Assembly (NCBI RefSeq): GCF_026898135.2
Contig: NZ_CP114035.2
Coordinates: 3,265,501 to 3,329,500 of the forward strand
Direction of reading: 5' to 3'
Length of the DNA: 64,000 nucleotides
Origin: Pseudomonas fortuita
Lineage (GTDB): Bacteria; Pseudomonadota; Gammaproteobacteria; Pseudomonadales; Pseudomonadaceae
Made by a program: the position numbers and the translations under genes. The number at the start of each line of letters is the position of its first letter. Position 1 is the first letter of the stretch. Positions 327 to 63,744 of this stretch are shown piece after piece. The notes under the pieces were generated by a model. That model searched no databases and had not been told where the DNA came from. It saw only the letters and a list, made by a program, of their open reading frames with translations.

Positions 327-1481
<1,155 letters not shown>

Positions 1482-60547: not shown

Positions 60548-60636
60548 TGTGGGGGCGGGCTTGTCCCGCGAAGCAGGCAACGCTGTGTATGGCACCGGCT
60601 TTGCCGGTGTTCCCGGGGCAAGCCCGCTCCCACAGA
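60548..60636. repeat. REP element pair
   Basis: GTGGGGGCGGGCTTGTCCCG near 60549 and GGGGCAAGCCCGCTCCCACA ending near 60636 form an inverted REP pair around GGCACCGGCTTTGCCGGTG. It lies between the MFS gene and the small secreted protein gene. Confidence 0.88.
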
Positions 60637-61074: not shown

Positions 61075-61626
61075 ATGAACGTCAAACCCTGGCTGCTCGC
61101 CGCCCTGCTGCCCTGCACAGCCTTGGCAAGCAGTAGCAACCAAGGGGCGCTGTCGATCAGTTCCTCGTCATTCACTGATGGGGGCGTGATCGCCCTGCAG
61201 CAGGTCGGGCAGGACCCGGCCTGCGGCGCAGGCGAGGAGCGCACCCCGCAACTGAGTTGGAACAACCTGCCCGCAGGTACCCAGTCGCTCGCGCTGATCA
61301 TGTTCGACCCGGACGGCGGCAAGGGTATCGGCGTGGTGCACTGGGTCGCGTACAACATTGACCCGGAGCACGATGGGCTCAAGGAAGGCATGGCCGGGCT
61401 CAGTGGGCAATACGTGACTGTGGGGCGCAACTCGCGGGGCACCCTCAGCTACCGAGGCCCCTGCCCACCCGCTGGCGACAACCCGCACCATTACGCACTG
61501 ACGCTCATTGCCACAGACCTGCCCTTGGGCACGCTTCCCGAGGGACTGGACCGCAGCGGTCTGTTGCAGTTGCTGCAAGGCCACGCATTAGGGGCGCAGA
61601 GCCTGATCGGGCGCTACGGCCATTGA
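61075..61626 (+). CDS. YbhB/YbcL-family PEBP (Raf-kinase-inhibitor-like) protein
   Basis: The 183-residue protein has a signal peptide (WLLAALLPCTALA) and the PEBP fold motifs QLSWNNLPAGTQSLALIMFD with the DPD that follows, VVHWVAYNIDP and YRGPCPPAGDNPHHYALTL. Bacterial YbhB proteins bind small ligands and their role is unclear. It is followed at once by the promoter region of the aromatic leader. Confidence 0.9.
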   Translation: MNVKPWLLAALLPCTALASSSNQGALSISSSSFTDGGVIALQQVGQDPACGAGEERTPQLSWNNLPAGTQSLALIMFDPDGGKGIGVVHWVAYNIDPEHDGLKEGMAGLSGQYVTVGRNSRGTLSYRGPCPPAGDNPHHYALTLIATDLPLGTLPEGLDRSGLLQLLQGHALGAQSLIGRYGH

Positions 61627-61672
61627 ACCATCCAGTACAAAAACAAATGATCGAGCTCATAGCATTTATCCA

Positions 61673-61702
61673 TTGAATGGCCCGGTGAAACTGAAGTAAG
61701 CT
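61673..61702 (+). promoter_or_regulatory. Candidate promoter of the aromatic leader transcript
   Basis: TTGAAT (61673-61678) and TAAGCT (61697-61702) are separated by 18 bases, predicting a start near 61710, just before the leader's ribosome-binding site GGAG at 61717-61720. Both boxes are moderate matches, assigned by eye. Confidence 0.35.
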
Positions 61703-61726
61703 CGGGCTCATTCACTGGAGAGCAAC

Positions 61727-61846
61727 ATGCCAAATCACACCCGCAACCACGCCAACCACACCGGTCGCAAACTGCGCCCTGTGCTGGCCGTTGCCGGCTG
61801 CGTGGCACCTGCCAGCTATTACTTCGGGTATTGGTTTAGCCACTAG
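61727..61846 (+). CDS. Aromatic-rich leader peptide upstream of DAHP synthase
   Basis: A 39-codon ORF with GGAG six bases before its ATG. Its last nine residues are YYFGYWFSH: codons 31-37 read Tyr-Tyr-Phe-Gly-Tyr-Trp-Phe, then Ser-His-stop (61844-61846). Six of these nine residues are aromatic. A series of alternative stems and a terminator begin at the stop codon itself. This is the form of a regulatory leader peptide whose translation senses charged tRNA for aromatic amino acids. A genuine tiny membrane protein is a less likely alternative. Confidence 0.75.
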   Translation: MPNHTRNHANHTGRKLRPVLAVAGCVAPASYYFGYWFSH

Positions 61847-61940
61847 GCGCCGATACCCACACGGCGCCCACCTTCGAGGGGCCGCCGAACATGAGAATAC
61901 TCAAACCCCCGGTCGGCTCCCCGACCGGGGGTTTTGCTTT
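61846..61940 (+). promoter_or_regulatory. Attenuator: competing stems and terminator after the leader peptide
   Basis: Segment 1 GGCGCCG (61846-61852) pairs with segment 2 CGGCGCC (61862-61868). Segment 2 can instead pair with segment 3 (GGCGCCC with GGGCCGCC at 61879-61886). Segment 3 GGGGCCGCCG (61878-61887) can instead pair with CGGTCGGCTCC (61910-61920), which disrupts the terminator. A ribosome stalled at the aromatic codons leaves 1:2 free to form, so 3 pairs with the terminator arm and transcription continues. A ribosome at the stop codon covers segment 1, so 2:3 forms and the terminator folds. Structures drawn by hand. Confidence 0.65.
61903..61940 (+). terminator. Intrinsic terminator (attenuator arm)
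   Basis: AAACCCCCGGTCGG (61903-61916), loop CTCC, and CCGACCGGGGGTTT (61921-61934) make a perfect 14-bp stem followed by TGCTTTT. It lies 57 bases after the leader stop codon and 243 bases before the aroF start. Confidence 0.85.
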
Positions 61941-61982
61941 TCAGGCCTTTGAACAACACCGATTCACATTGAGGACAGATTC

Positions 61983-62132
61983 ATGAACTACGCCACTTAT
62001 TACGACGCAAACACCTATGCCTGGCGATTTAGCCAATCCCGTTCGGGCCAGCCTGCCGCCTCCGATCGGTCCTCAACAGGTGGCAATGCAGCAGCCAATA
62101 CGAATTCAACGATCTGTCGAACACCTCGATAG
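61983..62132 (+). CDS. Second short aromatic-rich ORF, in frame with aroF
   Basis: A 49-codon ORF with GAGG eight bases before its ATG. It begins MNYATYYDANTYAWRF: four Tyr, one Trp and one Phe in the first 16 codons. The rest (to CRTPR) has weak codon bias and ends in TAG 48 bases before the aroF ATG, in the same reading frame. It could be a second leader that controls aroF translation or simply a non-functional ORF. The hairpin TGCCGCCT (62054-62061)/AGGTGGCA (62078-62085) lies inside it; no T-run follows. Confidence 0.5.
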   Translation: MNYATYYDANTYAWRFSQSRSGQPAASDRSSTGGNAAANTNSTICRTPR

Positions 62133-62180
62133 GGCCGACAGCGCGGGCCTGAACCCGCCGTCCGCCCAGGGAAAAACGCC

Positions 62181-63242
62181 ATGCAAGCTTCCAACCTCGC
62201 CCTGCCCCTGACTCAGCCGCAAGCAGCCAACACCACGGTCAGCAAGCGCCTGCCCAGCCCGCACCTGCTCAAGCAACAGATGCCGCTGTCCAGTGAACTG
62301 GCCCAGCAAGTCCAGGCCCACCGCCAGGCCATCCGCAACATCCTCGAAGGCCGCGACGAGCGCCTGCTGGTAATCGTCGGCCCGTGCTCGATCCACGACC
62401 CACGCTCGGCGCTGGAATACGCCGACCGCCTGGCCGCCCTCAGCCGCGAAGTCGGTGACAAGCTGCTGCTGGTGATGCGCGCCTACGTCGAAAAACCGCG
62501 TACTACCGTCGGCTGGAAAGGTCTGGCCTACGACCCACACCTGGATGGCAGCGACGACATGCACTCGGGTATTGCCTTGTCCCGCGGGCTGATGCTGAGC
62601 ATGATCGAACGTGGCCTGCCGGTGGCCACCGAGCTGCTGCAACCGATGGCCGCCGGCTACTTCGACGACCTGCTGGCCTGGGCCGCAATTGGCGCACGCA
62701 CTACCGAATCGCAAATTCACCGCGAAATGGTCAGTGGCCTGGAACTGCCGGTCGGGTTCAAGAACGGCACCGACGGCGGCATTTCCATCGCCACCGACGC
62801 CATGCGCAGCGCAGCCCACCCGCACCGCCACTTCGGCATGGATGCGCAGGGCCACCCGGCAATCATCGAAACCCTGGGCAACCCGGACACGCACTTGGTA
62901 CTGCGCGGTGGCCACAAAGGGCCCAACTACGATGCCAACAGCATCGCCATGGCCCGTCAGGCATTGGCCAAGGTTGGCGTTCAGGCGCGCATCATGGTCG
63001 ATTGCAGCCACGCCAACAGCGGCAAGGACCCGGCTCGTCAGCCGGCGGTGTTCAACGATGTGCTGGAGCAACGCCTGGCAGGCGATCGCTCGATCGTTGG
63101 CGTGATGATCGAGGGGCACCTGTTCGACGGCTGCCAGGCGCTGGGCAAGGGTGCACTGAAGTACGGCGTTTCGATCACCGACGGCTGCCTGGGCTGGGCC
63201 TCGACCGAAACCTTGTTGCGTGAGGCTGCACTAAAACTGTGA
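62181..63242 (+). CDS. aroF: 3-deoxy-7-phosphoheptulonate (DAHP) synthase, class I
   Basis: The 353-residue enzyme joins phosphoenolpyruvate and erythrose 4-phosphate, the first step of the shikimate pathway. It has the class I motifs VIVGPCSIHDPRSAL, RAYVEKPRTTVGWKGL, GFKNGTDGG, LRGGHKGPNYD and MVDCSHANSGKD. AGGGA precedes ATG 62181. It lies behind an aromatic leader and attenuator, so its expression should rise when charged aromatic tRNA falls. Whether its feedback inhibitor is Tyr, Trp or Phe cannot be settled here; the Tyr-rich leaders favour Tyr. Symbol is used for the class. Confidence 0.93.
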   Translation: MQASNLALPLTQPQAANTTVSKRLPSPHLLKQQMPLSSELAQQVQAHRQAIRNILEGRDERLLVIVGPCSIHDPRSALEYADRLAALSREVGDKLLLVMRAYVEKPRTTVGWKGLAYDPHLDGSDDMHSGIALSRGLMLSMIERGLPVATELLQPMAAGYFDDLLAWAAIGARTTESQIHREMVSGLELPVGFKNGTDGGISIATDAMRSAAHPHRHFGMDAQGHPAIIETLGNPDTHLVLRGGHKGPNYDANSIAMARQALAKVGVQARIMVDCSHANSGKDPARQPAVFNDVLEQRLAGDRSIVGVMIEGHLFDGCQALGKGALKYGVSITDGCLGWASTETLLREAALKL

Positions 63243-63603: not shown

Positions 63604-63627
63604 TTCTCCCTCCCGGTGATCAGACCC

Positions 63628-63717
63628 CCTGTGGGAGCGGGTTTACCCGCGAAGAGGCCAGACCAGACAACCTCGTTGCCTGCTCCGACGCATTCGCGGG
63701 TAAACCCGCTCCCACAA
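63628..63717. repeat. REP element pair directly before a peptide-binding gene
   Basis: CCTGTGGGAGCGGGTTTACC at 63628 and its inverted GGTAAACCCGCTCCCACAAG ending near 63717. The second arm ends only a few bases from the possible starts of the next gene. Confidence 0.88.
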
Positions 63718-63744
63718 GTATTGTGGGGGCTTGTGTTTTCGTGC

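Follow-up and report, generated by a model that had tools for sequence, protein, structure and literature searches.

P15 as the probable 3' part of a ribosome-mediated aroF attenuator sensing three aromatic amino acids in Pseudomonas

Several well-described leaders convert the position of a ribosome on a short open reading frame (ORF) into control of the gene that follows. The his operon attenuator of enterobacteria (Rfam RF00514, His_leader) contains codons for the end product of its pathway and is laid out in six segments, which form two alternating cascades of pairings ending in a terminator. The enterobacterial pheA and trp leaders carry their aromatic codons in the 5' arm of the first stem and a terminator before the gene, each of them reading a single amino acid, while in translational attenuators such as ermC, which respond to a drug, ribosome position on a short leader ORF exposes the next start.

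In addition to these systems, Rfam lists P15 (RF00627) as a Pseudomonas small RNA (sRNA). P15 is reported to be among the sRNAs detected by Livny et al. (PMC2375449), and its function was called unknown in 2017 (PMC5627042). The main text of an attenuator survey contains none of the terms 'P15', 'aromatic' or 'DAHP' (PMC2965389), and that of a P. aeruginosa transcriptome study does not mention P15 (PMC3460626). Within the literature searched, which covered few subscription journals, neither an assignment of P15 or its leader to attenuation, nor a function of P15, nor an account of the second leader ORF (ORF2) treated below was found. Here, we argue that the RNA at 61727-61934 of a Pseudomonas fortuita window (the whole stretch of 64,000 nucleotides that was analysed) is most probably a ribosome-mediated transcription attenuator of aroF which jointly senses the supply of Tyr, Phe and Trp, and that P15 is its 3' part.

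Anatomy and conservation of the leader

A preliminary description of the locus had named a 39-codon leader ORF ending in YYFGYWFSH and, downstream, the first enzyme of aromatic synthesis, and both identifications hold (Table 1): the ORF, here called ORF1, is present behind a Shine-Dalgarno (SD) sequence, and the aroF product matches the class I DAHP synthase profile NF009395 with 525.2 bits (cut-off 343). The genome's other match to AroF is a second DAHP synthase paralog located elsewhere and 54% identical, so that the leader stands before only one of the two copies. No sigma-70-like promoter was matched upstream of the leader under a strict consensus. The gene 5' of the leader (61075-61626) encodes a protein of the YbhB/YbcL (phosphatidylethanolamine-binding) family. 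Further out, at 60548-60633 and 63620-63734, imperfect palindromes with arms of the GGGCGGGCTTG/CAAGCCCGCTCCC and GGGAGCGGGTTTACCCGCG types give weak Rfam matches to microRNA families of animals and plants; we take them to be probably repetitive extragenic palindromes rather than microRNAs.

Table 1. Features of the aroF leader region, in coordinates of the window
Feature	Position	Strand	Basis or remark
Leader ORF1 Shine-Dalgarno, ggagag	61717..61722	+	sequence; SD-like sequence before most homologous ORF1s
Leader ORF1, 39 codons, MPNH...SYYFGYWFSH*	61727..61846	+	ORF list; homologous leader peptides; site frequencies
ORF1 aromatic run, Y Y F G Y W F	codons 31-37	+	
Rfam RF00627 (P15) match, 109.7 bits (gathering 70)	61813..61931	+	covariance model
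Segment 1, GGG TAT TGG codons (Gly Tyr Trp), GGGTATTGG	61826..61834	+	partner 61850-61858
Segment 2, GGCGCCG (partner segment 3), overlapped by CCGATACCC (partner segment 1)	61846..61858	+	
Segment 3, CGGCGCCC	61862..61869	+	partner segment 2 (antiterminator state) or 4 (terminator state)
Segment 4, GGGGCCGCCG	61878..61887	+	partner segment 3 or terminator 5' arm 61910-61920
Intrinsic terminator, segments 5 and 6, 14 pairs, then TGCTTTTCAG	61903..61934	+	terminator scan
ORF2 Shine-Dalgarno, gagga	61971..61975	+	sequence
Second leader ORF (ORF2), 49 codons, MNYATYYDANTYAWRFSQSRSGQPAASDRSSTGG...CRTPR*	61983..62132	+	
Near-invariant TGG CGA TTT AGC (Trp-Arg-Phe-Ser) in ORF2	62022..62033	+	TGGCG could pair with 62177-62181
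H-type pseudoknot candidate within ORF2	62039..62084	+	S1 62039-62046:62062-62069; S2 62055-62060:62079-62084
aroF, class I 3-deoxy-7-phosphoheptulonate (DAHP) synthase	62181..63242	+	profile match

The leader peptide recurs among relatives, with homologs in all 30 loci of a first set and in further loci, and leader, stop codon and terminator return in every readable one of the 90 P15 loci fetched, 89 in all (the exception, L088, is truncated by a contig end), which is more than chance. While the N-terminal half of ORF1 is free to vary across these loci, its C-terminal end is constant. Conservation of the aromatic run had been named in advance as a point on which the attenuator proposal could fail, and the run is in fact preserved, since all 89 readable loci have Y-W-[FY]-S at a constant position. 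Within G-Y-W-F-S, Tyr, Trp and Ser are invariant and Phe is found in 88/89 loci, the residue ahead of Y-W-[FY]-S being Gly in 87 and Ala in two. The three sites preceding the Gly are aromatic in 81, 87 and 88 of the 89 loci, with Phe and Tyr exchanging at each of them (F58/Y23, Y62/F25 and F63/Y25). Selection on the run thus appears to favour aromatic codons as a class over any particular amino acid, as a sensor of general aromatic supply would predict.

The same description had proposed a set of mutually exclusive stems, one of them opened by the stop codon, that lead to a 14-bp terminator with a T-rich tail and include an antiterminator. All of these parts were recovered. The terminator has its 14 pairs, and a scan of 61600-62200 gave three terminator-like sites, which overlap, compared with 0.5 in shuffled sequence; the antiterminator between segment 4 and the terminator 5' arm comprises 10 pairs with one bulge; and the G of TAG begins the stem 61846-61852:61862-61868. 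The three stems proposed correspond to 2:3, 3:4 and 4:5 of the present numbering, but a further stem, 1:2, in which the Gly-Tyr-Trp codons pair with sequence after the stop codon, had been overlooked, although it is already drawn in Rfam's P15 consensus. The conserved segments can therefore be arranged into two alternative cascades, 1:2/3:4/5:6 for the terminator state and 2:3/4:5 for the antiterminator state.

In a hand-picked alignment of 68 of the 90 P15 loci, the pairs of the terminator state are kept in 97.0% of cells, compared with 37-61% when the strands are slid, and those of the antiterminator state in 88.6%, compared with 20-50%. The check by alignment and covariation that had been suggested for the stems thus came out favourably for pair retention but not for covariation: changes on both sides affect only 3 and 2 pairs, respectively, and pair types are no more numerous in either state than in shuffles. 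Covariation is scant because most columns of the region hardly vary. Support for the putative six-segment model comes more from conservation and folding than from covariation, and falls short of proof. Taken together, the region has the parts of an attenuator, namely, at the sequence level, a short leader ORF with an SD-like sequence before aroF, a run of end-product codons near the end of the ORF that is conserved across the 89 loci, and mutually exclusive segments that include an intrinsic terminator.

Ribosome position was modelled by folding transcripts that end 4 bases past the terminator 5' arm and masking the RNA up to 12 bases, the ribosome footprint used, from the first base of the A-site codon. 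The mean probability of upstream sequestration of the terminator arm over the 90 loci is 0.55-0.60 when the A site is at the Gly codon or at either of the two codons preceding it, and 0.53, 0.53 and 0.52 at the Tyr, Trp and Phe codons, where it exceeds 0.35 in 90/90 loci each. It then declines to 0.49 at Ser (88/90 loci above 0.35), 0.33 at His (40/90) and 0.26 at the stop codon (30/90); without a ribosome, it is 0.30 (35/90). The predicted switch point consequently falls after the last aromatic codon and before the stop codon, and sequestration is higher at Trp than at the stop codon in 87/90 loci. When the stretch from the Trp-stall mask to the arm was shuffled in 30 of the loci, this difference fell from the observed 0.213 to 0.022, and none of 20 shuffled sets reached the observed value.

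An aromatic stall had been expected to favour the antiterminator and a ribosome at the stop codon the terminator, which agrees with the folding results across loci but only weakly at the window's own locus (L022), where sequestration is 0.54 at Trp and still 0.45 at the stop codon, owing to a long 4:5 helix. In this equilibrium model, the antiterminator is retained at the stop codon in 30/90 loci, the window's included, and in these loci the terminator state would depend on kinetic trapping, with 3:4 arising first as the RNA is transcribed.

The mechanism proposed is as follows. With plentiful charged aromatic tRNAs, the ribosome would reach the stop codon or leave, and segment 2 would be either covered or paired with segment 1, allowing 3:4 and then the 5:6 terminator to form. 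A ribosome stalled on the Tyr, Phe or Trp codons would instead cover segment 1, so that 2:3 could form and segment 4 pair with the terminator 5' arm; by this 4:5 pairing, transcription would proceed into aroF. By its anatomy and conservation, transcription attenuation at ORF1 is very likely, and we infer that ORF1 is translated, that ribosomes stall on it and that the locus responds in vivo. A sensor that holds codons for all three aromatics in one run fits an enzyme which commits carbon to all three.

Linkage to one aroF paralog and other roles for P15

P15 was found in 34 of 57 genomes drawn as relatives and in 244 of 298 genomes of the family, representing 14 of 19 genera, and in 0/14 control genomes. 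In 87/87 loci that could be oriented by the Gly-Tyr-Trp codon motif (the other three of the 90 fetched, L088-L090, were oriented by eye), aroF lies 3' of P15, at 62-100% identity. In genomes called P15-less by a search with Infernal's stricter filters, the sole protein matching the window's AroF is the 51-55% identical paralog; this applies to 21/21 examined, consisting of 20 of the 54 in the 298-genome draw and one from the 57-genome draw. Upstream of the second paralog, no ORF with an aromatic cluster was seen in 21 of 22 regions (those of the 21 genomes and the window's second copy), the exception, L111, having two short chance-like ORFs. Leader and aroF paralog thus come and go together. 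Near one second paralog (L113), an Rfam match to the P14 sRNA (106.1 bits; positions 576-720, minus strand) lies on the same strand, about 0.8 kb past the gene's 3' end.

This linkage bears directly on the reading under which P15 is listed, that of a trans-acting sRNA with its own promoter and terminator, whose place before aroF would be incidental. The Rfam entry favours it, as does a higher level of P15 RNA reported in an hfq mutant of P. fluorescens (PMC5627042). Yet the place of P15 is not independent of a neighbouring gene, with aroF downstream in every oriented locus and no P15 match in any of the 21 genomes examined that lack that aroF paralog, and its 5' part consists of codons in which one aromatic is exchanged for another. 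We therefore hold a purely trans-acting sRNA to be highly improbable, although the terminated leader may have a dual role and also act in trans. The reported detection of P15 RNA in relatives is compatible with a terminated leader. The very high conservation of the RNA sequence might point to a metabolite-binding riboswitch in place of a leader read by ribosomes, and such a function was suggested from synteny with a TPP riboswitch (PMC2527527). However, conservation tracks an ORF complete with SD, start, stop and aromatic codons, no riboswitch family was matched in Rfam, and ribosome position suffices for the predicted switch, which makes a riboswitch exceedingly improbable. Under the attenuator reading, P15 would move from 'sRNA gene' to 'cis-regulatory leader', with a concrete and testable function.

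Related leaders extend beyond the range of the Rfam model. In a wider survey with AroF as query, which took the best 80 named loci among the matches listed, both ORFs were found in 64/64 non-halophile loci by a loose motif test and in 60/64 under a stricter filter for SD and aromatic density; in the four loci that failed (L151, L159, L173 and L181), both ORFs are nonetheless readable. The 16 halophile loci among these 80, from Halomonas, Chromohalobacter, Salinicola, Halotalea, Franzmannia, Onishia and Cobetia, which we take to be of the Halomonadaceae type, have ORF1 in 16/16 and ORF2 in 12/16, the four without ORF2 being Salinicola. Three halophile loci scored for P15 gave 49.8 (L182), 27.2 and 26.6 bits, all below the cut-off. 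A locus of another family (L207) reached 64.5 bits before aroF, also below the cut-off; by eye, it has the leader and lacks ORF2. In two genomes of yet another family of the order, a single aromatic leader ORF precedes aroF (FFWWFGYGFYFS in L209 and SWWFGYGFYFS in L210), with a terminator-like hairpin in between; ORF2 is absent.

The second leader ORF and its pseudoknot

Between terminator and aroF, all 90 fetched P15 loci contain ORF2 (defined by WRF, WRY or, once, GRF), which has its own SD and an N-terminus rich in aromatics (YY..Y.WRF). Among 49 sequences picked for a length of 50 and WRF at codon 15, codons 15-17 read TGG CGA TTT in 49/49; CGA and TTT are absent from the codons of the window's aroF. 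Near the end of the ORF, at 62115-62123 (TGTCGAACA), the codons TGT CGA ACA are invariant in 49, 49 and 47 of the 49. No pairing partner was found for these codons or for the CGA and TTT of codons 16 and 17. Codons 2-14 show a dN/dS of about 0.42 in the same 49 sequences, which indicates mild purifying selection on the protein. No Pfam or NCBIfam family matched ORF2 above the cut-off, and the named ones among its 42 database relatives are all hypothetical or uncharacterised. Past the ORF2 stop and ahead of the aroF SD, a GCGGG...CCCGC hairpin occupies 62141-62158, and several relatives have hairpin-like sequence at this place.

Behind the TGGCGATTTAGC block, some members of the window's genus and the halophiles carry two helices that cross, at a constant distance from the block and without gaps. 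Among 75 distinct long-form sequences, which were selected with motifs covering one strand of each helix and from which L070 was removed by hand as a short-form false match, 98.4% of cells pair, compared with 13.5-53.3% when slid; in the window itself, 62042:62066 of S1 is mismatched. Double-change cells number 9 against 0.8 in shuffles (0/500), further pair types 10 against 6.5 (0/500), and pairs with a double change 2 against 0.7 (27/500), one S1 column pair that pairs in just 12/75 being excluded from the count. The double changes are confined to S1, while S2 is backed by conservation and one-side changes. The element has the two crossing helices and the covariation that characterize an H-type pseudoknot. 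The unfiltered 173 ORF2 loci are bimodal, with 116 keeping 11-13 of 13 pairs, 54 keeping 2-7 and three keeping 9-10, and a shorter ORF2 lacking the pseudoknot is the usual form in other members of Pseudomonas, among them L023, L028 and L029, and in the other Pseudomonadaceae genera examined. A covariance model of the pseudoknot matched 13 of 293 genomes of the order: five of the window's genus (its own included), seven of one other family, which by eye show both leaders, and one false match (L206), which by eye is not before aroF. Rfam has no match at this position. Neither Rfam nor the literature searched describes the structured element formed by ORF2 and its pseudoknot, which belongs to a pathway exploited for aromatic production.

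A contact between ORF2 and the aroF start may be indicated by complementarity. Across the 90 loci, the predicted pairing of the ORF2 Trp segment with the aroF SD/start averages -12.07 kcal/mol, compared with -11.31 (sd 0.15) when starts are swapped among loci (0/5000), with -4.2 to -6.7 for windows 12-45 bases upstream of the start and with -7.4 to -10.5 for those 9-45 bases downstream. In 31 non-redundant loci (those of the 90 with start regions less than 75% identical), the values are -12.96 against -11.69 kcal/mol (sd 0.34) for swapped starts (0/5000), -9.78 for shuffled start regions and -11.25 for a stretch inside aroF. The pairing register varies among loci, reaching 14 pairs across the start codon in L019, and few loci pair strongly. 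The own start is better than the mean foreign start in 18/31 loci, and leaving out the best three loci lets 96/3000 permutations do as well, the best five 665/3000; over all 90 loci, the own start ranks at 0.51 on average, no better than chance.

Two other routes to control were rejected. General exposure of the aroF SD is not a sufficient mechanism, the predicted changes being too small: masking ORF2 codons raises the accessibility of the aroF start only from 0.504 to 0.553 (90 loci), and 11 halophile loci (with the start of L191 set too early) show no consistent change, with 0.42 without and 0.38-0.49 with a ribosome. In 6 of the 11, ORF2 ends at most 7 bases from the aroF start or overlaps it. 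A programmed frameshift at TGG CGA TTT AGC ahead of the pseudoknot fits in spacing, but no slippery site was recognized for a shift forwards or backwards, and ahead of its start the aroF frame stays open for just 16 codons (369 aa compared with 353).

Two readings of ORF2 are weighed against these data. If ORF1 alone regulates, ORF2 would either encode a small protein or serve as a passive spacer whose translation shields some 250 nt ahead of aroF from Rho. The mild purifying selection speaks for this, as do the barely altered start accessibility, with its inconsistency in halophiles, and the locus-specific complementarity that is gone without the best five loci; the invariant TGG CGA TTT, the covarying pseudoknot and a complementarity of the Trp segment to aroF starts beyond that of shuffled ones speak against it, leaving it slightly short of an even chance. 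Alternatively, we hypothesize that ORF2 may control aroF translation. The resulting two-tier sensor, in which ORF1 would decide on transcription and ORF2, through its codons, pseudoknot and start-pairing segment, on translation, and which would be older than the Pseudomonadaceae, is a new and plausible but tentative reading, to which we give clearly less than an even chance; our confidence in it was lowered somewhat because the start pairing rests on few loci. Its presence in halophiles would place the arrangement before the Pseudomonadaceae, transfer being the alternative.

Comparison with known leaders

The proposed aroF attenuator would be a variation on a known mechanism. With the his attenuator it shares end-product codons and two alternating cascades ending in a terminator, but it would read three amino acids and precedes the gene for the first enzyme of its pathway; against RF00514 itself, the window gives a chance-level score only (20.7 bits against a cut-off of 49, E 3.5). 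ORF2 resembles translational attenuators such as ermC in that ribosome position on a short leader ORF could expose the next start. It differs in that its signal would be amino-acid starvation instead of a drug, in the conserved pseudoknot inside the ORF and in its place behind a transcription attenuator, and its predicted exposure effect is weak. As a member of RF00627, clearing the gathering threshold, the window departs from the family's typing as a gene (sRNA), since P15 is here the 3' part of a cis leader whose ORF starts 86 bases upstream. From the enterobacterial pheA and trp leaders, which likewise place aromatic codons in the 5' arm of the first stem and a terminator before the gene, the window is set apart by joining Tyr, Phe and Trp, of which those leaders read one amino acid each, in a single run, and by a second aromatic leader ORF that follows the terminator.
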